A DNA stretch of 24,114 nucleotides from the IMG/VR virus record IMGVR_UViG_3300035670_001222, positions 1-24,114 of that record. One strand, 5' to 3'. A program made the translations under genes and the position numbers. Positions 3,590-23,187 of this stretch are shown in pieces; position 1 is the stretch's first letter, and every line of letters starts with the position of its first letter. The notes under the pieces are model-generated. The model ran no database searches. It was not told where the DNA came from and saw nothing but the letters and a program-made list of their open reading frames with translations. The DNA is from a virus.

Positions 3590-3786
3590 TTTTTCTTATT
3601 TGGAGTAAATTTAAGTAATTCTTCTGACAGAACCACTCTTCCCTTGGTATTTCTTGGTTCATAGGGGCAATGTCTGCAGTGGTCACCACAGCAACTACCT
3701 CTATTAATATGGAAGAGCGCAGTGAAAATCACGCGCTCACCTTCCACATAATAGTCAACTCCGTTTTTTAATTGTCTATCCTTCAC
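3586..3786 (-). CDS. DUF5522-like Cys-rich small protein
   Basis: This 66-aa protein has LKNGVDYYVEGERVIFTA followed by GSCCGDHCRHCPY (Cys32, 33, 37, 40), which matches my memory of the DUF5522 family, common in Bacteroidetes chromosomes. The cluster of four cysteines and a His suggests a metal or iron-sulfur site, but the family function is unknown. The chosen start is a GTG at 3784-3786 that overlaps the nrdA stop; conserved residues begin right after it and no nearer ATG exists. The gene is placed directly after nrdA, which may point to a redox or metal role around the reductase; this is inference. It is also one of the better hints about the host phylum. Confidence 0.72.
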   Translation of the reverse strand: MKDRQLKNGVDYYVEGERVIFTALFHINRGSCCGDHCRHCPYEPRNTKGRVVLSEELLKFTPNKKK

Positions 3787-5500
3787 AAGATATACATTCA
3801 GATAAACGTTGTAGGTTGTCTCCTCTCAATACTGATTCAGTACGTAAATAGTATAATGTTTTAATACCTAATTTATGTGCTTCTTTATGTACTTGGGATA
3901 TCCATTTTGGAGTATCATTTGGATCAAAACATAAATTTAATGAAATTGCTTGATCAATATATTGTTGTCTAATAGCGTTTTGTTTTACTATTTCTAACTG
4001 ATTAATTTCCTTAAATGTTAAGAATACTGATTTTTCTTCATCAGTTAAAATATAACTAGGAACATTAATTACTGATCCTTGATCTTTTAAAATTTGATCC
4101 CAAACACTATCAATATTGTATCCCTTTTTATCTAGTAATTCTTCTAGAATTTTATTTCGTTTAATGAATACGCCTTTTGCTGTTTTAAGGTTATATACAT
4201 TCGCGGGGATTGGTTCAATTGATGGTGATACTCCACCTGAAATATGAGCATTTGATACCGTTGGTGCAATTGCTAAATGGTGGGAATGTCTTAATCCAGT
4301 ACCTTTACACCATTCTGGTTCTCCATATACTTCGGCTTGATCACGAGATGCTTTTAGAGTTTCTGTTTGAATAAATTCAGATATAATTCTAGTTAATGCT
4401 GATGATTGGATGCTAGCAAATGGTAATCCTTTTGATTGCAATAATGTATGCCATCCTAAAACACCAATTCCAATTGCTCTACCTTTAGTAGCAGAACGAA
4501 CTGTGTTTTCCATAAATTTGATATTCTTAGCTCTATCAATAAATTCTTGTAATACACCTTCTAAGAACCAACATGCTACTTCTGGTAATGTCATACCATT
4601 ATCAAATTTATAGTCTTTCCATTCGTCCCAACGTGCTAAATTCAATGATGATAAACAACAAATAAATGAATGTAATTCGTCTGTGTATAATGAAATCTCA
4701 CTACAAATATTTGTCATTGATACATGAAGGTTTAATTTCTTATATCCTTCAGGATTCACATTATTCACATTATCTTCAAACATGATATAAGGTTCACCAG
4801 TTTCAAGACGTGTTTTTAATATTTCACCCCACAAACGCATAGAACGTTCATCTTTATTTTCTAATTTATCCATAAATGTGTCATCAACAACAACACATTG
4901 GTGTAAATTTAAACATTGGCGATTAACATCACCTTTTGGTCTACGGATTTGTAAGAATTCTTCAATATCAGGGTGGTTAATGCTTAGATTAACCGATGCT
5001 GCACCTCTTCTAACTGATCCTTGATTTGTAGCAAGAATAGTTGAATCATAAATTTTACACCAAGGCACTACACCTTCAGATACACCATTATCTCTAATAG
5101 ATTTACCTCTACCTCTGATACGAGATACTCCAATACCAACTCCACCACCTTGAGATGATAATCTCATTAGTTCTGAATTTGCGTCTGCAATACCCTCAAT
5201 TGAATCACCAACGTCAATACCAAAACATGAAATAGGCATTCCACGTTCAGTACCTAAATTTGACAATACTGGAGATGCTAAACATAACCAGTTTTTTACT
5301 ATTGCTTCGTAGAATATTGGTTGTAAATCTTTACGTCTTAATCTACGTGAAGATGCTTTACTTACTCTTTTAAATGCGCCAAATACATCTTCATCAGGCA
5401 TTAAATACCCTTTAGAAATCATACTTAATGCTATTTCATCCATCCAAGAAGGAAAATCTTTACCTTTAACCCAGGTACTGGTGTCTACTTGTATACTCAT
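3776..5500 (-). CDS. nrdA: Ribonucleotide reductase class I alpha subunit, compact
   Basis: NrdA reduces ribonucleoside diphosphates to deoxy forms with a radical delivered from NrdB. The ATG at 5498-5500 is preferred (574 aa). A TTG 30 nt upstream would overlap nrdB, whereas the ATG follows the nrdB stop by 14 nt. Catalytic features are visible: Cys92 in SCFG, Asn264-Cys266-Glu268 in TNICSE, Cys281/282 in the CCLSSLN motif, the radical-path pair Tyr550-Tyr551 in TLYYLRTES, and the C-terminal shuttle pair Cys569/Cys572 (CISC). The protein starts close to the catalytic barrel and lacks the N-terminal ATP cone, so dATP feedback inhibition is probably absent. It is shorter than typical NrdA/NrdE (700 or more). 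It sits with nrdB and thioredoxin in one unit. Confidence 0.93.
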   Translation of the reverse strand: MSIQVDTSTWVKGKDFPSWMDEIALSMISKGYLMPDEDVFGAFKRVSKASSRRLRRKDLQPIFYEAIVKNWLCLASPVLSNLGTERGMPISCFGIDVGDSIEGIADANSELMRLSSQGGGVGIGVSRIRGRGKSIRDNGVSEGVVPWCKIYDSTILATNQGSVRRGAASVNLSINHPDIEEFLQIRRPKGDVNRQCLNLHQCVVVDDTFMDKLENKDERSMRLWGEILKTRLETGEPYIMFEDNVNNVNPEGYKKLNLHVSMTNICSEISLYTDELHSFICCLSSLNLARWDEWKDYKFDNGMTLPEVACWFLEGVLQEFIDRAKNIKFMENTVRSATKGRAIGIGVLGWHTLLQSKGLPFASIQSSALTRIISEFIQTETLKASRDQAEVYGEPEWCKGTGLRHSHHLAIAPTVSNAHISGGVSPSIEPIPANVYNLKTAKGVFIKRNKILEELLDKKGYNIDSVWDQILKDQGSVINVPSYILTDEEKSVFLTFKEINQLEIVKQNAIRQQYIDQAISLNLCFDPNDTPKWISQVHKEAHKLGIKTLYYLRTESVLRGDNLQRLSECISCEG

Positions 5501-5514
5501 CTTATAATTTAATT

Positions 5515-6465
5515 TTAAAGGTCTGACCAATCTGCGTTTGACTTTGAATAACTAGTCACGCGTCCTGCAAAGAAATCTTGGTGGGTTTTTCCACTTGTTA
5601 AATGTCCAAACCATTCCATTTGTTTTAATAGGTTAGGATCAATATCATTAAAAATACCATTATAACCTAATTCAACCATTTTCTCATTTGCTCTTGCTTT
5701 GATAAATGTTTTTAATTGAGGAATATTTAATCCTTCAATATCTCCCATTTCAAATGCTTTATCAATAAAATCAAATTCTAATTGAACAGATAATCGACAA
5801 GCTTCTGCTACAGATGAACGCATTTCTACTGTATCTAATTCAGGTTGTTCTTCTAATAATTTTCTAAATAACCAACACCCTGCTTTTGAATGTAATGACT
5901 CATCTCTAACACTCCACTCTACAATTTGACCTGTTCCCTTCATTAAATTTCTTAATTGAAAAGACATTAATATAGCAAATGAAGAAAACAAATTAACGCC
6001 TTCAGTAAATGCTGAGAATATAGCTAATGATAATGCTTTTTCTCTAATGTTATCACCAGGTACTTCAATCAAACGATCAATTTTTGCTTTTGATGTTTCA
6101 TCTTCTAAAAATGCCTGGAAATCATCTAATCCTAATTCTTCATTTAATCGAGCATAAGCTTCAGCGTGGATGCTTTCAAAATCAGCAAACACACGAGCCA
6201 TAGCTTGGATTTCTGGTTTTGGGAACCATAATGATACTTTGGTAGACCAATAATCATTAACGTGTACTTCTGTTTGAGCGAATGATTTTAAAATATTTCC
6301 TATCAAATTCTTTTCTGAATCTGTTAGTTTTAATTTCCAATCGTTTAGATCAGAAGCTAAAGGTACTTCATCAGCTAACCAATGCACTCTATGTTGGTCT
6401 TTATAGAAGTTGAATGCTTCTTGGTATTCAAATGGTTTGTAGAAAATACGTGGTTCCGTTATCAT
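5515..6465 (-). CDS. nrdB: Ribonucleotide reductase class I beta subunit
   Basis: NrdB holds the di-iron site and tyrosyl radical that start catalysis in NrdA. The 316-aa product has all expected ligands in the right order: Glu66 (AQTEVHVNDYW), Glu97 and His100 in FESIHAEAY with radical Tyr104, Glu155 (FTEGVNLF), and Glu189 with His192 in RDESLH. The gene overlaps the thioredoxin stop by 4 nt and is followed by nrdA. The C-terminal tail (SNADWSDL) would be the part that docks on NrdA. Length is slightly short of the roughly 320-390 aa norm, with nothing essential missing. Confidence 0.95.
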   Translation of the reverse strand: MITEPRIFYKPFEYQEAFNFYKDQHRVHWLADEVPLASDLNDWKLKLTDSEKNLIGNILKSFAQTEVHVNDYWSTKVSLWFPKPEIQAMARVFADFESIHAEAYARLNEELGLDDFQAFLEDETSKAKIDRLIEVPGDNIREKALSLAIFSAFTEGVNLFSSFAILMSFQLRNLMKGTGQIVEWSVRDESLHSKAGCWLFRKLLEEQPELDTVEMRSSVAEACRLSVQLEFDFIDKAFEMGDIEGLNIPQLKTFIKARANEKMVELGYNGIFNDIDPNLLKQMEWFGHLTSGKTHQDFFAGRVTSYSKSNADWSDL

Positions 6466-6722
6466 TTTAATGAATTTAATAAGTTAACTAATGTTGGTTT
6501 TGATTGCATACCCAAGGTACGCTTTACTTCTTGCCCATCAACCTCTATTACTAAAGTAGGAACTGAACGAATATTATATTTTAATGCTGCATCAGGGTTA
6601 CTGTCTACATCTATTGTTTCGAAATTAACATCAGTTAATTCTGATTTGATTTGTTCCATTAAAGGAGCAAGTTGCTTACATGGGCCGCACCAGGCAGCCG
6701 TGAACCTTTTTACCGTTACCAT
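6462..6722 (-). CDS. Thioredoxin
   Basis: This 86-aa protein has a full thioredoxin core. The active site AAWCGPCKQLAP places Cys12 and Cys15. A VDSNPD strand follows, and the cis-proline motif is RSVPTLV. It is short because the N-terminal strand and helix before the active site are reduced, as in many phage thioredoxins and glutaredoxin-like NrdH/NrdC proteins. It probably re-reduces the C-terminal cysteine pair of NrdA, whose gene is two positions downstream. It is the first gene after an ATATTTAT box at 6742-6749 and overlaps the nrdB start, so it opens the nrd-que transcription unit. Confidence 0.93.
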   Translation of the reverse strand: MVTVKRFTAAWCGPCKQLAPLMEQIKSELTDVNFETIDVDSNPDAALKYNIRSVPTLVIEVDGQEVKRTLGMQSKPTLVNLLNSLK

Positions 6723-6740
6723 AATTTTTATTGTTGTAGT

Positions 6741-6750
6741 TATAAATATA
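6741..6750 (-). promoter_or_regulatory. ATATTTAT box upstream of thioredoxin (candidate phage promoter)
   Basis: On the minus strand the sequence TATATTTATA lies 19 nt (core to ATG) before the thioredoxin start. The same 8-base core occurs at similar distance before four tail genes. It overlaps one half of a perfect 14-bp palindrome (6748-6761). Promoter function is inferred from the shared position only. Confidence 0.45.
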
Positions 6751-6761
6751 GTATATACTAT
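6748..6761. repeat. Perfect 14-bp palindrome at the helicase/thioredoxin junction
   Basis: ATAGTATATACTAT is identical on both strands. It covers the helicase stop codon (6758-6760) and abuts the ATATTTAT box. It could be an operator for a dimeric regulator; it is also a simple A/T-rich palindrome that could arise by chance. Confidence 0.4.
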
Positions 6762-8140
6762 TGACCTTTACTAAGCTCAAAAAACTTTTGTTGAAGATAA
6801 TCTCTATCGTCATTATTAACGCTACTGTATTGATTTACAGGTTTTGAGTCATCGTCATCATCATCCTCTAATGGGGTTTCGTATATATCTATTTTTCCGT
6901 TTGATGTATCTATTTTGGAACCAAATGTTAATCCGTCAGCACCATATCTGTTTTTCATGACGTGCCAACGTCCGGTTCCATTTACTTTATCTTTTCTTCC
7001 TCTTGCTAGAGATAAAATAATATCTCCAATCATAATTTTTTCATATGAACCAGCTGCATTATCTCCTTCAATAATATTGCTTTTAGCAGCACCTCTATTT
7101 GCTTGTGAAGGTGATATAACTGGTATTCCTAATTCTTTAGCTAATGCTTTAGCTCCAACATAAACATCATCAATTTCTTCCTTACGTTCTCCATTTCTAG
7201 AGCGAGATGAACTCTTAACATAATCAAGATAATCAATAATAATTAAATCAGGTTTGAAATCATGTTGCATTTCCAGTTGTTGAAGGTGAGCCTGGATAGT
7301 ATCGAATGATGCTCTTTTAGGTGGGTATTCTTTGATTACTACTTTACCTCTAACTTTACTAATAGTTTCTTCAACTTTAGCTCTATTTTTATCTAAGGTA
7401 TCAACAGGTATTCCTGTAAACACAGCATCATATCTTTTACCTACATAACCTTCAGCTAATTCAAGTGAATAATGTACTACATTATATCCCATAGCGGCCG
7501 CATAAGCTCCCATATCAATAACAGCCCATGATTTACCACCTCCAGGGTTACCAAATACTAGTACTAGATCTCCTTTACCCATCCCACCTTGAGTTAGACT
7601 ATTAAATACAGGCCAAGGGAAAGGTATTGCATTTCTATCATCTACTCTATATCTTGATTCAATATCTTTATCATATTCATGACCAATATTTTTATCTTCA
7701 CCTGCTTTTAAGGCATTATTCATTAGTGTTTTAATACTATCATAATCACCCATACCAAGCAAATCAACAGAAGTCATGATTGCTTTTTTTACTTGTTGGT
7801 TTTTACAAAAATTAGTAAATTCATTCTCTACCCAATCCAAATCATTTGCTTGTGATTCTTTATAAGCTTCTCTCAACCCCTCAGTAATAGCAATTTTTAA
7901 AACATCATTATCAACCTTCTTTACTTCAGTAGACAGTACCTCCATTGTTGGTACTGTATGATACTTAGAAAAATATGATTGTATTTCTTTAACAATCCAT
8001 TGATTAGCTTGATTTTCAAAATATTCTTTTTCTAAAGAATCAGACACATTTACTAAGAAGTTCTTCTGTGTTAATAATGCTCCAATTACTTTCGTTTGAA
8101 ACTGAGGTCCGTATGCTTGTAATTTTTGTAATGTTGTCAT
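6758..8140 (-). CDS. DnaB-type replicative helicase (T4 gp41-like)
   Basis: This 460-aa hexameric helicase candidate unwinds DNA at the phage fork. An N-terminal helical domain (1-150) is followed by the RecA-like motor: Walker A GNPGGGKS at 197-204, the catalytic Glu227 in SLELAE, Walker B LIIIDYLDYV at 299-308 (Asp303), and the SPSQANRG motif at 343-350 with the sensor Gln346. The C-terminus carries a run of Asp (EDDDDDDSK) and ends KFFELSKGQ, a tail type often used for partner contacts. It starts 13 nt after the nuclease gene and precedes thioredoxin. The order UvsX - RNase H - helicase fits a T4-like replication module. No primase was seen in the window. Confidence 0.9.
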   Translation of the reverse strand: MTTLQKLQAYGPQFQTKVIGALLTQKNFLVNVSDSLEKEYFENQANQWIVKEIQSYFSKYHTVPTMEVLSTEVKKVDNDVLKIAITEGLREAYKESQANDLDWVENEFTNFCKNQQVKKAIMTSVDLLGMGDYDSIKTLMNNALKAGEDKNIGHEYDKDIESRYRVDDRNAIPFPWPVFNSLTQGGMGKGDLVLVFGNPGGGKSWAVIDMGAYAAAMGYNVVHYSLELAEGYVGKRYDAVFTGIPVDTLDKNRAKVEETISKVRGKVVIKEYPPKRASFDTIQAHLQQLEMQHDFKPDLIIIDYLDYVKSSSRSRNGERKEEIDDVYVGAKALAKELGIPVISPSQANRGAAKSNIIEGDNAAGSYEKIMIGDIILSLARGRKDKVNGTGRWHVMKNRYGADGLTFGSKIDTSNGKIDIYETPLEDDDDDDSKPVNQYSSVNNDDRDYLQQKFFELSKGQ

Positions 8141-8153
8141 AACTTTTTTAAAT

Positions 8154-9182
8154 TTAATTAAGAGAATTTAAGTAACCAAATACTTCTGTAAGCCAATTAT
8201 CTACGTTTGGTATTGACTCTCCCAATTTATCATTCACGTATATTTGATGAAATAAATACTTATTTAATTCATATGAACCATTAAAAGCATCTTTTACCAA
8301 CTGTTTGTTCTCAGGTGATAAGAAACTTCCATCCAAAGACATCAGTCGTTCATTAATTTCTAATTGATGTCTTCTTTCTACTACTGATAGATATAATTTA
8401 TTTTCATCTATTTTATTAGCAGATGACTCGATAATATCACTTAGTTCTAATTTATTCTCATTGATTAATTCAGGGAATAATTTAAGCAACTTAACAGGTC
8501 CTAAACCTGCAATTCCAGGAATATTATCAGATTGATCACCCATCAATATTTTATAATTCAAGAAATTATAACTACTAACACCGAATTCTTCTAATACATC
8601 TTTTGGTTTATATACCTTCTTTTTAACTGGAGAGTATACTTGGACTTTGTCTGAAATTAATTGTAAGAAATCTTTGTCAGCAGACATAATAGTTACGCTT
8701 GTTGTCTCATTATACGCCTGGAATTTATTTGATAAGTAACCAATAATATCATCTGCTTCCAAACCATCAATACTAACAACTGTAACTGGTAGGCATTTAA
8801 GATATTGAATTAATCTTGCCATCTGGTTATTTATACTCTCTGTTTCTTCTTCTTTTGAAGAGAAAATAGAATAATTTGTCATGCGGTTAACATGACGATT
8901 TGCTTTATACTCAGGGTATAAATTTCTCCTAGCATTCGAACCACCAACACCATCAAATACAATTACTACTTTAGTTGGATTAAGCATTTTGATTGCATAA
9001 CCAATTGATTTCAAAAATCCAGTTAGACCACCAATGTGGTGGCCATTTGGATTGATGTGATTAATCATAGTAAACGACCTCAAGAATGTATTGAGGCCGT
9101 CTATGATTAAGATTGAGTCTAATTGTGTCCTAGTGTCTGGTTGAATACTTGAGATTAGATCAAAGTATTTATTCTTGGACAT
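8154..9182 (-). CDS. rnh: 5'-3' exonuclease / flap nuclease (T4 RNase H-like)
   Basis: This FEN-family nuclease (342 aa) removes RNA primers and flaps on the lagging strand. Metal-binding acidic residues appear in family order: Asp28 in LIIDGLNTF, Asp77 in VVIVFDGVGG, Glu142-Asp144-Asp145 in LEADDIIGYL, Asp169 and Asp171 in SADKDFLQLI, and Asp216 and Asp219 in GDQSDNIPGIAGLG, the last being the helix-hairpin-helix entrance. RRNLYPEYKANR at 85-96 is the DNA-binding arch region. Its ATG overlaps the end of uvsX by 14 nt, in a different frame. Size is close to T4 RNase H (about 305 aa). Confidence 0.9.
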   Translation of the reverse strand: MSKNKYFDLISSIQPDTRTQLDSILIIDGLNTFLRSFTMINHINPNGHHIGGLTGFLKSIGYAIKMLNPTKVVIVFDGVGGSNARRNLYPEYKANRHVNRMTNYSIFSSKEEETESINNQMARLIQYLKCLPVTVVSIDGLEADDIIGYLSNKFQAYNETTSVTIMSADKDFLQLISDKVQVYSPVKKKVYKPKDVLEEFGVSSYNFLNYKILMGDQSDNIPGIAGLGPVKLLKLFPELINENKLELSDIIESSANKIDENKLYLSVVERRHQLEINERLMSLDGSFLSPENKQLVKDAFNGSYELNKYLFHQIYVNDKLGESIPNVDNWLTEVFGYLNSLN

Positions 9183-10260
9183 CTACTAAATTTATTTCTT
9201 TAAAATTTTCTTCCATTTCATCTTCCTCAACAATATCAAAATCAGCTGATCCTAGAATTTGTAGCCACTCATGTGAGTGATCTTTTTTATAAGTATCAAT
9301 TGCTTTTTTATCATCAGGGATGAAACCATGGACTGTCATTGTAACAGTACCTTTTGTTTGTACACCTGTAACGTGATTTTTATCAGCAGAAATCTTAGTA
9401 CGTTTAGCAAATTCAACGTCTTTACCATCTTTAGTTGCTTTTATTTTGCTAGTACCACTGTTTGATACGTTACCAAATGTAATTACAAAAGATGAATCAA
9501 AGAACATTGTATCACCACCTTTATTTTTCAATTTAGGTTGTTCCATTGGTGAGTTTGGTTTTGCAACCCACACCTTATTAACTGCTACAAACGTATTTGT
9601 ATATGGTTGATTTTCTTTACGAGATAAGATAATCTTTTGATTAATAAAGTTACCAAATGTTTGAGACATTGCTCCAGCATTCCATTCATTATTATTTTTA
9701 TTTGACTCAACAGATAATCTACATGGAATAGATCCTACTGAATCCCACAAGAATAATAAATCAAATGGTAATTTACCGGATGCTTGTTCACTTAATAGGT
9801 CAGCTACAAAAGCACCTACATCTTCAATTGTGTTTAGTGAACCTCTATCTACATACAAGAAGAAACCTTTATAATCAATAACCTCACCTGTTTCAGGATC
9901 AGCTACAGATGTTAGTTCAAAACCCATTTGTACAGCATGTTCCCAATTCCATTTCATCTCAGTGATGATGAAAACTGGTAGAACACCCATCTTTTGAGCA
10001 GATACTGCTGCCTCAAGCATTGCTGTTGTTTTACCTGTATCTGAATGACCACGTAACAATGTTATATGGCCCATAGGAATACCTGGGATAGACAATACAT
10101 CTTGGAATGCCTTTGAAAGCGGAATCCACCTTTGTGGTTTAAATTTAACAGATTGATCTAAGAATTTAGATTTCTTAAATGCATCAATGTTAAATGATTT
10201 TTTTAACGATTCGGATACAACCGTCGTTAGACTGTCTTTACTTTTAGCCATTTTAGCCAT
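9169..10260 (-). CDS. uvsX: UvsX/RecA-like recombinase
   Basis: A strand-exchange ATPase of 363 aa. Walker A is GHSDTGKT at 71-78, the catalytic Glu101 lies in ITEMKW, and Walker B LLFLWDSVGS at 168-177 has Asp173. A DNA-binding loop region follows near 190-250 (EWNAGAMSQTFGNF, then KGGDTMFFDS). The C-terminal tail is acidic (EEDEMEENFKE), as in UvsX and RecA. The first codons repeat (ATG GCT AAA twice, giving MAKMAK), so translation could begin at either ATG three codons apart. It follows the gp32-like gene with a 6-nt gap, its natural partner in strand exchange and replication restart. Confidence 0.93.
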   Translation of the reverse strand: MAKMAKSKDSLTTVVSESLKKSFNIDAFKKSKFLDQSVKFKPQRWIPLSKAFQDVLSIPGIPMGHITLLRGHSDTGKTTAMLEAAVSAQKMGVLPVFIITEMKWNWEHAVQMGFELTSVADPETGEVIDYKGFFLYVDRGSLNTIEDVGAFVADLLSEQASGKLPFDLLFLWDSVGSIPCRLSVESNKNNNEWNAGAMSQTFGNFINQKIILSRKENQPYTNTFVAVNKVWVAKPNSPMEQPKLKNKGGDTMFFDSSFVITFGNVSNSGTSKIKATKDGKDVEFAKRTKISADKNHVTGVQTKGTVTMTVHGFIPDDKKAIDTYKKDHSHEWLQILGSADFDIVEEDEMEENFKEINLVDVQE

Positions 10261-10266
10261 TGTTTA

Positions 10267-11085
10267 TTAATCATTAAATAGTGAATCAAACTTATCAGTC
10301 GCTGTTGCTTTAGGTTTTACATCTAAAGTGTAAGGTTGAATTGGAGAGTTGAAATCTTTTAAGAAATCATCTTCCTCATCTACAATTGATGTTGGAGTTG
10401 CTTCCGGAGTTGATTCATCTTCAGGAGATAGCCACTTTTGCAATATGTCTTTCAACGCATCGTAAGTGTACTTTCGATTAATAGCTAAGATGTCAGGTTG
10501 TTCTTCTAATGATTTAGTAACAAATGCAGCATCATCAGAGATTGGTGTAGATTTTGGTTTTGGTCTTAAAGTACATTTAATACCTTTTCTACCAGCAATT
10601 ACATCTTCGATTGCTTCAACTGTAAAATCACGACCATCTGTAATGTCTGTAAAATCACCGTAATCTTCATCACTAGCGATACCCATTAATTGGTCATTAA
10701 CTAATTTACCAACTTCCCATAGACGTACACCTGCACTCTCTTCACCGCGAACGATTACTGGAGCAAAATAACGTGTTTTAGGAGAAATTTTGTTGGCTAG
10801 AGTCCAATCATCTTTATCGGATGATTTACGTAGTTTCTTAGCGAAGTCTGTGATTGGGTCTTCTTCACCCCAGTTACTTAATGCTAAGATTGGTCCTTTT
10901 GAAAAACCATAGTGCATTTGAACTTCGCGCAATGGCCACTCTTTTCTAAAAGTGTTTGGGACGATTCTGATCTGGTGTTTGCCTGCTTTTGGTTTCCAGA
11001 AAATTTTAGTGTAGTCGATTTTTTCACGACCTGCGCCTCTGTTGGCGTTCGCTTCAAGCTTCTGCTTGACAAAACTTAAATCCAT
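10267..11085 (-). CDS. Single-stranded DNA-binding protein, T4 gp32-like
   Basis: This 272-aa protein coats ssDNA at the fork and during UvsX recombination. It has a basic N-terminus for cooperativity (KQKLEANANRGAGREK), the OB-fold core start FWKPKAGKHQIRIVP at 29-43, the conserved block YFAPVIVRGEESAGVRLWE, and an acidic tail rich in Asp/Glu that ends DKFDSLFND, typical of SSB partner-binding tails. T4 gp32 has a zinc finger with three Cys; this protein has a single Cys (IKCTL), so that zinc site is absent. It is directly upstream of uvsX. Its leader contains two small hairpins that could serve autoregulation. Confidence 0.9.
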   Translation of the reverse strand: MDLSFVKQKLEANANRGAGREKIDYTKIFWKPKAGKHQIRIVPNTFRKEWPLREVQMHYGFSKGPILALSNWGEEDPITDFAKKLRKSSDKDDWTLANKISPKTRYFAPVIVRGEESAGVRLWEVGKLVNDQLMGIASDEDYGDFTDITDGRDFTVEAIEDVIAGRKGIKCTLRPKPKSTPISDDAAFVTKSLEEQPDILAINRKYTYDALKDILQKWLSPEDESTPEATPTSIVDEEDDFLKDFNSPIQPYTLDVKPKATATDKFDSLFND

Positions 11086-19458: not shown

Positions 19459-21558
19459 TTATGCTAACTTATATGAACCTTGTACTAATGTTGAACCTAC
19501 TGCTCTACCATCCATATTAACTATGCCAGGTTTATTATTGTTTTCCTTAGTTATACTAATTAAGTTTTGCATTAAGCCTTCTAATCGTGAACTTCCTTCA
19601 CCAGATGGTGGTTTTACATTAGTTCCAACAAGTATATTATCATCAGGTCTTGTTTTAAAAGATCCAGCAGAACTCATAATAAGAGAACCATCAGATCCAA
19701 TAAATCCATCGCTCATTGGTTTTGCAGCTTCTGCTTTAGCAGTAGAAAAAGCACCCATACCTGCCGCAATTGCGGCTAATATTACAGGAATTGCTATACC
19801 TAAAGTCATTGCTGATTGAGCACTAATAGCTCCTGCTGCTACTATACCCATTTGTACAGCCATTGCTCCTAAACTTGCTATAGTTTTGACTAAAGAAATC
19901 CCAGCTAAAGCTCCTATAACACCATATAATACAGTAGCATTACTGGCTATTGATGCAAACCCATCTATTAATCTTCCTAAAGGACCTGCTACTAAATTTC
20001 CAATTAAATCTTGAAGTTTAGTTACAGCAGCATTAAATTTATCTTGTGCTGATAATTGTTCTAATCTATTAGCTACTTCCTCTCCACCAATTGCTAAAAC
20101 TTCTGATCTAGATTTACCTAACATCTGTTGTTTTAATAATTGGTCTGATAAAGAATCTGCTGATAATCCTAAAGATTCAGCTAAGGCCTTTTGTTGAATT
20201 ACGTTTAATTTAGAAAATTCATTAAAATCCATTGCTTGAGCTGATAATTCTTTGGCAACAGTTGCTTGGTCACCTTTTAAGGCAGCCATTCTAGCATTTT
20301 CTAAATTTAATTCTTTACCTGTTAATAATTCAGATTTTAATTCATTATCAATTGATGATTCAAAATTAAGAAGAGATTCTGCTTGAGCTTTAGTTTGTTC
20401 TAAAGTAGTACCTAATAATTTTGTTTGGGTTACTGCTTCAGCTATTGCTCGAGGATTGCCTTTAAAATTAGCTAATAATTGGCCTGATACTTTACCAACA
20501 TCATTTAATACTTCTCTATTATCTAATTGAATACCGTTTTGTGCCTGTAATGCTTGAGCGGTACCTAAAGCTTCTATTGTTATTGATTTAGAACTTTTAC
20601 CAGTTGCCAAACTTAATTGAGATAATTTAGCAGCAGATTCAGCATTTATACCCATTTTTTGGGTTAATACTGTGAAGTTTTGTAATAAATCTTTAGATCT
20701 AGGAACATTAAACCCTAACTGCTTAGATAACTGACTAAATGATTCAAGTAATTTATCTGTTGTTACCGCAGCATCTCCTATTTCTCTACTAAATTGAGTA
20801 AATTCACCTCTAACATCATTGGCTTCTCCTTTAGTTAAAGTTAAAGACTTTGCAAGTTCAGTTACTTGTTTATCTGCTTTAAACCCTTGGGTCATGAAGA
20901 AAGTAAATACTGTTAACGGATCTAAAAGATTTGTTGTAATACTTTTTCCTAAAGAAGATAAACCAGCTCCTAATGTTGTAAATCTATTAGCTCCTTTTTT
21001 AGCAGCTGCTTCTTGGATATCTCCTAAAACTTTTTCACTATTTATTAATCCACCTAGTACTGGTATTTTATTTAGTCCTTTAACTGCATTTCCTAGAAGC
21101 CCAATATTGTGTTCAATTTTTAAAGCTGTCTTTTCTTGTTCTTTAAGTTCACGTGTTCCTTCAGTAATTGCTTCATTTATTTGATCCTGTAATTTTCTAG
21201 ATTCATCTTCTGTTATATATTCATTTTTTCTAGCTGTAATTACTTGATTTATAGATCTAATTTTCTTTTCTTCTAATTCTCGAAGTTGATTTGATAATTC
21301 TTTAGAAGAAAGTTGACCTTTATTTAATTTTAACTGGTTGTCAATTAATTTATCTCCACTTTTTCCTAAAGAAGTCATTAATGAACCAACACCTGATCTT
21401 AGACTTCTAACATATTGTTTAGTATATTCATCAGCGTCTATTAAATTTTCATTAAGATTTTGTTTAATAGAAGCACCTAAACTTATAAAGGCATCCTTTA
21501 AAATTTCAGCGGTTTCCGCAGTTTCTCTTAATATTTGATCGGGTGTTTTATCAGCCAT
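19459..21558 (-). CDS. Tail tape measure protein
   Basis: This protein of 699 aa sets tail length. The N-terminal half is helical and charged with coiled-coil character (e.g. SNQLRELEEKKIRSI, KEQEKTALKIEHNI). A long hydrophobic zone at 543-604 (VLYGVIGALAGISLV to GIAIPVILAAIAAG) holds two or three membrane-type helices, as in many tape measures that insert into the host membrane. The end has the tape-measure C-terminal pattern GFIGSDGSLIMSS...DDNILVGTNV. It lies after the gp26/gp51-like pair, the usual place. By the rule of about 0.15 nm per residue the tail would be roughly 100 nm. It has its own ATATTTAT box and a terminator upstream. Confidence 0.9.
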   Translation of the reverse strand: MADKTPDQILRETAETAEILKDAFISLGASIKQNLNENLIDADEYTKQYVRSLRSGVGSLMTSLGKSGDKLIDNQLKLNKGQLSSKELSNQLRELEEKKIRSINQVITARKNEYITEDESRKLQDQINEAITEGTRELKEQEKTALKIEHNIGLLGNAVKGLNKIPVLGGLINSEKVLGDIQEAAAKKGANRFTTLGAGLSSLGKSITTNLLDPLTVFTFFMTQGFKADKQVTELAKSLTLTKGEANDVRGEFTQFSREIGDAAVTTDKLLESFSQLSKQLGFNVPRSKDLLQNFTVLTQKMGINAESAAKLSQLSLATGKSSKSITIEALGTAQALQAQNGIQLDNREVLNDVGKVSGQLLANFKGNPRAIAEAVTQTKLLGTTLEQTKAQAESLLNFESSIDNELKSELLTGKELNLENARMAALKGDQATVAKELSAQAMDFNEFSKLNVIQQKALAESLGLSADSLSDQLLKQQMLGKSRSEVLAIGGEEVANRLEQLSAQDKFNAAVTKLQDLIGNLVAGPLGRLIDGFASIASNATVLYGVIGALAGISLVKTIASLGAMAVQMGIVAAGAISAQSAMTLGIAIPVILAAIAAGMGAFSTAKAEAAKPMSDGFIGSDGSLIMSSAGSFKTRPDDNILVGTNVKPPSGEGSSRLEGLMQNLISITKENNNKPGIVNMDGRAVGSTLVQGSYKLA

Positions 21559-21590: not shown

Positions 21591-21613
21591 AAGCGCCTAT
21601 TTTTTAGGCGCCT
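21591..21613 (-). terminator. Hairpin terminator after the gp51-like frame
   Basis: AGGCGCCTA (21613-21605) pairs with TAGGCGCTT (21599-21591): a 9-bp GC-rich stem with one G-U pair and an A5 loop in RNA. The stop codon of the gp51-like frame lies at 21604-21606. A short U/A tract (CTTATATTTATA) follows, which also forms the next ATATTTAT box. Confidence 0.7.
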
Positions 21614-21939
21614 CTCTTAGATGTAAAATCGGGTGGGGTTATAACGTTAGAAGTGGTGGATTTACCTCCTCTCGCGTTTTCTGCGGCTTGTTGTGCGTCT
21701 TCTGTTGCTTTGTTTTCTTCATCATAGTATTTCTTTAATTCATGGAATGTGTATCGTCTTAACCAATTGGGCATTGTATAAACAGTGTACCAATCATATC
21801 CACCTTTGCCATGAAATACTACTTCATGTATTTGTTTAAATATGGAGAGCCTATGCTCCGAGGTCAGGCCAAAAAAAGTCAAGACCAATTGTAAAAGGTA
21901 TGCCCTCCTCAACACCCTCTGGATAGAATTTAAGTTCAA
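21604..21939 (-). CDS. gp51-like tail assembly protein, probably made by +1 frameshift from the gp26-like gene
   Basis: The frame has no usable ATG: the open frame begins at a TTG inside the gp26-like gene, and its first ATG comes only at the MPNWL segment, after conserved-looking residues. The characteristic part is SEHRLSIFKQIHEVVFHGKGGYDW followed by TVYTMPNWLRRYTFHELKKYY (shown in two pieces) and an Ala/Glu/Gln-rich tail. In T4, genes 26 and 51 are adjacent and lie just before 27, 28 and the tape measure gene 29. The frame is +1 relative to the gp26-like gene and becomes continuous with it at the T7 run 21877-21871. It is probably the C-terminal extension of a tail assembly chaperone. A TTG or other non-ATG start remains possible. 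Real start therefore uncertain. Confidence 0.65.
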   Translation of the reverse strand: MNLNSIQRVLRRAYLLQLVLTFFGLTSEHRLSIFKQIHEVVFHGKGGYDWYTVYTMPNWLRRYTFHELKKYYDEENKATEDAQQAAENARGGKSTTSNVITPPDFTSKRGA

Positions 21940-22606
21940 TACCTGGTTGTACTTGAGAATAATATTCTCTTAATGCTCTAGCATCTTTTGCTAATAAAAA
22001 CCCACCATCAACAAATTGTCTAATTTCAGCTACGTCACGTTTACCATTAATTGATGTAATAATATATTTTAATCGTGTTGTTGCTTCGTATGAACCTTGT
22101 GGATTTACTTTTAATAAACCTCTAATTTCAGCTTCAATTTTTTTCTCATCACCATGGGTTAATAATCTGAAAGTAATAGTATTATCAGTATGAGGTAGTT
22201 TATATGTAAATTCATTTATCCCTTTATTCAATAAAGTTTCATCAATTTCTTTTTCTTTCAAATTAGCTAAATCTACAACCTCGTTACGTGGGGTTCTTGA
22301 TTTAGGATCTAGAAAAGATACTGGGTAATCTTTACCATAACCCAAAATACGAGCAGCAATTAATATTGCATCTTTATCTGCTACTAATAATTCATCAAAG
22401 TTAATAGGAGTTACTATTAATGATTGTAACAATCTATCAATTACTGTTCCGTTTTTGATATAGTTTTGGTTTGTTAATATGTCTTCTTCTTTAGCTGACA
22501 TATATTTCATTTCAATTTCACCTTTAGATAGTGGTGATTCTGTTGGGTATAGTAGGCCTTTTGAAGGCAACGAAACCATTTCTGTAGGTAGCTTTAATTC
22601 GCTCAT
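21851..22606 (-). CDS. T4 gp26-like baseplate hub / tail assembly protein
   Basis: The N-terminus SLPSKGLLYP, then GEIEMKYMSAKEEDILTNQNYIKNG (in two parts), DELLVADKDAILIAARILGYG and VVDLANL match the T4_baseplate (gp26) family pattern: a beta entry, a helical part and a central strand pair. The usual zinc cysteines between GYG and the VDL motif are absent (VSFLDPKSRTPRNE). Length 251 aa against 208 in T4. It lies between the tail tube and tape measure, where phages keep tail assembly chaperones. The last 29 codons overlap a second frame (gp51-like). ATG at 22604-22606, with an ATATTTAT box 24 nt upstream and a strong terminator before that. Confidence 0.8.
   Translation of the reverse strand: MSELKLPTEMVSLPSKGLLYPTESPLSKGEIEMKYMSAKEEDILTNQNYIKNGTVIDRLLQSLIVTPINFDELLVADKDAILIAARILGYGKDYPVSFLDPKSRTPRNEVVDLANLKEKEIDETLLNKGINEFTYKLPHTDNTITFRLLTHGDEKKIEAEIRGLLKVNPQGSYEATTRLKYIITSINGKRDVAEIRQFVDGGFLLAKDARALREYYSQVQPGIELKFYPEGVEEGIPFTIGLDFFWPDLGA
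21871..21877 (-). other. T7 slippery run, candidate +1 frameshift site
   Basis: In the gp26-like frame the codons are GAC TTT TTT TGG, 18 nt before the TAG stop. A slip of +1 by the Phe tRNA from TTT to TTT keeps perfect pairing and enters the gp51-like frame (GGC CTG ACC). A -2 slip would enter the same frame. No stop codon interrupts either path. Confidence 0.5.
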
Positions 22607-22670: not shown

Positions 22671-22698
22671 CTCTAAAAAAAAGAAATATGAAGGGGAA

Positions 22699-23187
22699 TT
22701 AAAAATTCAATACGCAGTAATCCATAGCAATTGTTAAAGAGATGTTTAATGGTGCTTCTGAGCTCCAATCCATGTCTCCAAAATTTGCTGATTTTGCATA
22801 AGCTCCTTTGATTTTCCATTCGCTTACTACATCACCTACTGGGCCTAATACTGATAATGTTAAGTCTTTTTTATAAAAATCAGAATAACCATCACGGCCT
22901 GTTACTGATTCATGTGCTAAACGTGCCCATTCCATTACTGCTTGTGCACCACTTGGAGTAATTGGATCATATAATTCTAAAGTCATATCATTCCACTTAA
23001 CTTTACCTTTTACTTTACGGTAAATATTAATATGGTCTAATACTATTTCTCCAGCATCAAATGATGGTGAAGATGCTTTCTTAATCAAATATGCTGGGAT
23101 GCCGTTAATTTCACAGATAAATCTATTTTGAACTTTTGGTTCAAAGGCTGTGAAAAATATTTCGTTGGCGTCTAAAATTCTTGGCAT
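22699..23187 (-). CDS. Tail tube protein (T4 gp19-like)
   Basis: The tube protein (162 aa, T4 gp19 is 163 aa) stacks into the inner tube within the sheath. Family features are present: VQNRFICEINGIPAYLIK near the start, EIVLDHINIYRKVKGKVKW, MTLELYDPITPSG, then AVMEWARLAHE and the last strand LNISLTIAMDYCVLNF. Its place right after the sheath is the standard sheath-tube order. The ATG at 23185-23187 has an A-rich leader. An ATATTTAT box lies 26 nt upstream, and a terminator follows the gene. Confidence 0.92.
   Translation of the reverse strand: MPRILDANEIFFTAFEPKVQNRFICEINGIPAYLIKKASSPSFDAGEIVLDHINIYRKVKGKVKWNDMTLELYDPITPSGAQAVMEWARLAHESVTGRDGYSDFYKKDLTLSVLGPVGDVVSEWKIKGAYAKSANFGDMDWSSEAPLNISLTIAMDYCVLNF

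Follow-up and report, generated by a model that had tools for sequence, protein, structure and literature searches.

The tail locus of the virus examined here very probably carries a programmed +1 frameshift cassette that is strongly conserved and codes for a tail assembly chaperone of lambda type within the T4 gp26/gp51 (PF12322) family. Judged from comparative sequence analysis, one gene seems to yield two tail-building helper proteins by means of a +1 slip at a run of T residues. The window is the whole 24,114-nucleotide stretch of IMG/VR record IMGVR_UViG_3300035670_001222. On its minus strand the tail sheath gene is followed by a gp19-like tail tube gene, a gp26-like gene that overlaps an ORF in another frame, and the tape measure gene (Table 1). 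The 3′ end of the gp26-like gene reads GAC TTT TTT TGG CCT GAC CTC GGA GCA TAG, and the codons bear out the earlier note, which had placed a possible +1 slip at the run of seven T's 18 nt before the stop, the distance at which the second TTT lies ahead of the 0-frame TAG. The next ORF is +1 relative to the gp26-like gene, is open from 21969 to 21604, and contains no ATG. Counting from the first TTG of this ORF, at 21939, reproduces the 89-nt overlap that had been described together with the missing ATG; further possible non-ATG starts exist in the same frame. The gp26-like gene and the +1-frame domain, called T below, sit between the tail tube and tape measure genes, the position that a G/GT cassette occupies, and the matches of both neighbours (phrog_4542/PF06841 for the tube, the immuto protein for the tape measure) agree with the placement first proposed.

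Table 1 Features of the window discussed in the text.
Feature	Position	Strand	Description
gp26-like gene, predicted short tail assembly chaperone (TAC-N, ‘G’)	21851..22606	−	251 aa, ending in FFWPDLGA
Slip site TTT TTT T(GG)	21871..21877	−	P-site codon would be the second TTT (21874-21872); re-pairing +1 base possible
0-frame stop TAG	21851..21853	−	6 codons past the slip codon
+1-frame C-terminal domain (‘T’)	21604..21870	−	88 codons + stop, GLTSEHR...KRGA
Predicted fusion TAC-NC (‘GT’)	21604..22606	−	333 aa, ...IGLDFF^GLTSEHR..., hypothetical translation
Tape measure protein	19459..21558	−	699 aa; downstream; aligns with the annotated immuto tape measure (29% identity, 510 columns, E 1e-42)
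Tail tube gene (gp19-like)	22699..23187	−	Upstream; phrog_4542 5.1e-27, PF06841 6.7e-7
Imperfect inverted repeat	21827-21811	−	Inside T
QueC-like gene	519-1382	−	PF06508 4.9e-34, phrog_1550
T4-like replication block	3776-11085	−

The arrangement was followed in a set of 269 loci including the window, made up of the closest relatives (the best 80 of 561 IMG/VR matches) and of extra searches seeded with immuto, Mel-JY01, SP-15 and LR756508, with at most the best 80 loci kept per search. Five loci are incomplete, leaving 264 with a complete gp26-like gene; 255 of these are testable for frame, the others being eight whose flank is shorter than 200 bases, and LR756511, which lacks a slip site of this kind and has an ATG of its own. 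At 80% identity the locus set forms 77 clusters. TTT TTT TGG CCT GAC is kept in all 80 of the closest relatives (best 80 of 561), and tblastn places the T protein in the +1 frame in 79 of them, that is, in all those where it could be matched. Across the wider set, 253 of 255 testable loci have a +1 frame that runs on for 40 codons or more beyond the 0-frame stop, a measure that for the more distant loci does not by itself amount to homology of T. The 0-frame stop follows the slip codon by 3–6 codons in these 253 loci, and in none of the 264 does frame 0 itself continue into a recognisable T motif. The commonest slip codons in the 264 loci are TTT TTT TGG CCT (197), TTT CTT TGG CCT (35) and TTC TTT TGG CCT (14), followed by TTT CTA TGG CCT (4), CTT TTT TGG CCT (3) and TTT TTT TAC CCT (2), with TTT CTT TAC, TTT CTA TTC, TTC TTG TAT and TTC CTT TGG CCA once each; SP-15 has TTT TTT CAC (at two loci, of which one is a second copy), LIS04 TTT TTT AGT and GXN1 TTC TTT CGT. 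Most variant sites retain a codon able to re-pair one base on, the least tidy being TTT TTT A of LIS04, where perfect re-pairing needs a slip at the first TTT. Conservation of the T run and of the frame relation had been named in advance as a check on a programmed shift joining the two frames, and that proposal is supported by how widely the frame relation, the slip run and the lack of a start are conserved.

The slip codon itself is under visible constraint. Where the second codon encodes Phe it is TTT in 65 of 65 clusters, while elsewhere in those genes Phe is written 517 times as TTT and 159 times as TTC (23.5% TTC), giving a log10 probability of −9.9 if the clusters were independent, which they are not fully. 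Even genes that prefer TTC (TTT:TTC of 2:8 in SP-15, 0:5 in LIS04 and 1:5 in GXN1) still use TTT at the slip codon. The first codon is less constrained across clusters (69 TTT, 5 TTC, 2 CTT), as would be expected if the second codon is the one that slips. Differences in the T frame fall at codon positions 1, 2 and 3 in the proportion 9655/5292/24312 (1301 non-independent pairs), and this third-position bias indicates that the T frame evolves as protein. The window contains the 12-mer TTTTTTTGGCCT once, whereas 0 of 100 shuffles have it, so its presence exceeds chance. Runs of seven T's have 14 matches on both strands of the window against 39.6 expected in shuffles, and are therefore rarer than chance; on the coding (minus) strand the only ones are the slip site and an overlapping pair in the intergenic gap 22675-22682. 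The scarcity of T7/A7 extends across the window, which looks like avoidance of homopolymers.

In 89 of 253 loci (26 of 72 clusters at 80% identity) the stretch that begins at the upstream +1 stop and ends 15 codons beyond the slip contains no ATG, GTG or TTG. The upstream stop lies 8 to 125 nt from the slip in the 253 loci (median 26), so that the T frame often opens just ahead of the run. A separate T gene started at TTG, GTG or a non-AUG codon (for example CUG right after the run), with no frameshift, could draw on TTG 21939 and the other in-frame starts of the window, on an ATG somewhere within reach in 106 of 253 loci, and on the ATG-started genes of L260, L265, L088, KVP40, P-SSM2 and S-PM2. 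Separate initiation may apply at some loci, but as the general explanation we consider it very unlikely, given the 89 loci that offer no start, the start positions that vary among close relatives whereas the slip run does not, and a constraint that falls on the third position of a Phe codon in the upstream frame. L260 and L265 act as a natural control: the slip run is lost (TTC TTG TAT; TTC CTT TGG CCA), and the T domain, now with its own ATG 5–8 nt from the stop, has moved to another frame. Relatives with an ATG-started gene and no slippery run, which the earlier note had said would speak against a shift, are thus present (2 of 255), but with the domain in a different frame from that of the window. 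Slippage of RNA polymerase at T7, producing a subset of mRNA with T6 (or T9), is slightly less probable again; the run does lie within an A+T-rich gene, but interrupted runs (TTTCTTT, TTCTTTT, TTTCTA) retain the frame relation, which argues against it.

By the established rules of tRNA re-pairing an uninterrupted T7 allows a slip of either +1 or −2, and both directions had initially been entertained. A ribosomal −2 shift of Mu type, with the product DFFFGLTSEHR, would be permitted by the unbroken T7 of 197 of 264 loci, but about 56 loci have a site that bars −2 re-pairing of the P-site tRNA and permits +1, with an identical frame relation. These sites are TTC TTT TGG (14), TTT CTT TGG/TAC (36), TTT CTA (5, with TTT to TTC re-pairing) and TTC TTT CGT of GXN1 (1). 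They favour +1 over −2, so the +1 half of the first proposal stands and the −2 half, barred in relatives with TTC TTT TGG, TTT CTT TGG or TTT CTA TGG, falls away; we rate −2 as more doubtful than either a separate start or polymerase slippage. An error of sequencing or assembly that splits one gene has the presence of a homopolymer in its favour and is practically negligible. Hundreds of metagenome contigs show the identical relation, as do the immuto, Mel-JY01 and SP-15 genomes, and conservation of the frame relation, the run and the lack of a start far beyond close relatives excludes a homopolymer error in the window contig, contrary to the caveat raised at the outset.

For the programmed +1 shift, we infer slippage, its rate, the P-site mechanism and the chaperone function as follows. 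Most ribosomes would read the gp26-like gene to its own stop and release the short chaperone. A minority would pause while the P site holds the second UUU, paired with Phe-tRNA, and the A site holds UGG; this tRNA would then re-pair on the overlapping UUU one base on, and GGC would be decoded next. The slip would add the 88-residue helical domain through the junction ...DFF-GLTSEHR.... If the analogy with lambda gpG/gpGT holds, the tape measure would be coated by the short form, and the long form would recruit the tail tube. Folding of 72 cluster representatives window by window gave no clear downstream RNA stimulator. The mean fold z is −0.41 at the slip site and −1.07 at +30, with upstream values of 0.08 to −0.71, and no stimulator is claimed since comparable dips occur elsewhere (−0.82 at +90, −1.40 at +180). 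A hairpin near +45 in some loci was considered as a stimulator and set aside; it falls inside the stretch coding for the conserved HEIVFHG and is apparently too distant from the slip. Separately, an imperfect inverted repeat of the ATGAAGTAGTATTTCAT type is seen in the window and in L010, about 45 nt past the slip, and is probably codon-driven.

The gp26-like protein matches PF12322 (E 6.3e-6, 26.5 bits, cut-off 24.5) and phrog_150, a baseplate hub family (3.9e-11), and 29 of 38 members of the gp26-like alignment match PF12322 at E ≤ 0.01. P-SSM2, S-PM2, KVP40, Vi01, SP-15, GXN1 and LR756511 each have one PF12322 copy and T4 has two. The Pfam model of PF12322 finds no match in SPO1, immuto or Mel-JY01; immuto and Mel-JY01 are relatives of the window by direct alignment. 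G and T were modelled separately because a joint alignment misaligned the T rows. For the short protein, the AF2 model (pLDDT 93.6) has as its best match in VIA-align, among 535 aligned PDB chains, the HK97 tail assembly chaperone 2ob9, a weak match at Z 5.0 (rmsd 4.6, 98/104 residues; next chain Z 3.9), and Foldseek is likewise weak (E 3.0); the likeness of the predicted structure to an HK97-type chaperone fold is suggestive, not decisive. PDB offers no useful match for the T model (pLDDT 77), one of three aligned chains reaching Z ≥ 2 (a tRNA synthetase domain, Z 2.5). A PDB sequence search returned nothing meaningful and NCBIfam no real match. T weakly matches phrog_634, phrog_32580 and DUF6760, in 7 of 28 members each. 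DUF6760 was rejected as the identity of T (best 0.0024 in 7 of 28; window T 16.8 bits against a cut-off of 27), and no paper naming it was found in the literature searched.

A profile built from 68 window-lineage T domains scores LIS04 at 21.0 bits, KVP40 at 15.5, SP-15 at 15.1, GXN1 at 15.0, P-SSM2 gp51 at 13.8, LR756511 at 13.5 and S-PM2 gp51 at 13.4, the best shuffled decoy being 6.2; it does not match the −1 domain of Vi01. T4 gp51 scores 6.9 bits in HMMER (decoy 6.6), which is not significant. In profile-profile comparison with hhalign, seven gp51 C-termini reach 82% probability with the SP-15/cyanophage T set and 34% with the whole set, the latter at a score of 22.8 against 16.6 for the best of 40 column-shuffled decoys. 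Non-significant by HMMER and moderate by hhalign, the T4 gp51 C-terminus was not accepted as a T homologue and is kept as a lead. In immuto (L082), an annotated 36-aa hypothetical protein at 4839-4949 starts at an ATG inside T, so the deposited gene misses about half of T. The C-terminal domain is in this way mis-annotated or missed.

The comparison with T4 refines the name gp51-like given to the downstream frame. T4 gp26 and gp51 are both full-length PF12322 paralogues (E 8.8e-64 and 3.9e-52); where the shift would lie, gp26 stops with ...KEFFELL while gp51 continues. Unlike the window, T4 has two divergent genes and no shift, and the earlier description of genes 26 and 51 as separate is correct. 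The name is apt in the cyanophage sense (57-aa gp51) but not against the 249-aa T4 gp51, a PF12322 protein plus an extra C-terminus, so that the true T4 counterpart of the +1 frame would be that C-terminus only. It is weakly alignable with window T and may, on this slender likeness, correspond to it. Cyanophages and KVP40, with gp26 and a short gp51, have the same domain pair and the same FF position as the window; they differ in that T is in the −1 frame. In the S-PM2-like loci (L290-L369) the gene ends T TTT TTC plus one codon plus stop, with T in −1, in 80 of 80; an ATG lies within 15 codons in 55, none does in 25, and 18 have no start codon at all in that reach. From these 25 loci, a −1 shift probably also produces the short gp51 of cyanophages. 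The Vi01-like loci (Ackermannviridae, L370-L387) read GAR ATT TTC ATY TAA followed by a −1 ORF of about 50 codons in 18 of 18. TAATG occurs at the junction in L384-L386 and is absent from the other Vi01-like loci. One reading of this distribution, to which we give an even chance of being right, is that the T4-type chaperone had, ancestrally, one fixed slip position at its FF end and that lineages re-solved the long form differently, the T4 state being derived and frameshift-free within a frameshifting family. The routes would be +1 at TTT-T/TTT-C/CTT-T (the window lineage, SP-15, GXN1), −1 (at T TTT TTC in cyanophage-like loci, and also in Ackermannviridae), separate genes (L260, L265, LR756511), and duplication without a shift (T4 gp26 and gp51).

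Elsewhere, the window carries a QueC-like gene of queuosine/7-deazaguanine biosynthesis, possibly serving DNA modification, and a T4-like replication block with both ribonucleotide reductase subunits, a DnaB-like helicase, a 5′-3′ exonuclease, a UvsX-like recombinase and a gp32-like protein. The NrdA-like ORF of this block starts at TTG.

The chaperone identity of gp26 and gp51 is probably already known, and the main interest of the window's variant of the known tail-chaperone frameshift lies in its +1 direction and in the light it sheds on the T4 exception. No report of a +1 shift in the gp26/gp51 family was recognised in the literature searched, in which the 2022 paper by Vladimirov, Gautam and Davidson (Virology 566:9-15) is represented by its title and by citations. 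That title concerns T4-like chaperone genes and a mechanism other than frameshifting. According to one review, long-tailed phages conserve the G-T shift, ‘except T4’ (PMC5009743), and other papers list gp26 and gp51 as hub assembly chaperones (PMC3004832) and describe cyanophage gp51 as lacking the first ~200 residues of T4 gp51 with a similar C-terminus (PMC3037559). Passages citing Vladimirov et al. 2022 attribute two chaperone genes to T4-like phages, a short one and a longer fusion, and mention poly-T −1 signals in T4-like TAC-N genes (PMC10885494, PMC12846349). Relatives of the T4 ‘exception’ family appear to frameshift +1 in hundreds of environmental phages, and natural variants that gain or lose the slip form a ready series for studying UUU-U +1 slippage and the replacement of a frameshift by gene duplication.

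At the +1 sites of RF2 (CUU-UGA) and influenza PA-X the P-site tRNA re-pairs one base on. The CTT TGG of immuto and the TTT CGT of GXN1 resemble these two sites, that of PA-X being given as UCC-UUU-CGU (PMC3498833). In the window, by contrast, the A site would hold a sense codon, UGG, and no stimulator is known. The chaperone gene of Pseudomonas phage Adele is likened to the window by a poly-T slip at the end of TAC-N and differs in shifting −1 at GTTTTT (PMC12846349). Lambda gpG/gpGT and the other long-tailed phage chaperones (PMC5009743) share with the window two overlapping frames between tube and tape measure and, as predicted for the window, a slip near the end of ORF 1 that adds a C-terminal domain to a minority form. 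Where the window departs from lambda is in the +1 rather than −1 shift, at TTT-T, and in its protein family, PF12322.
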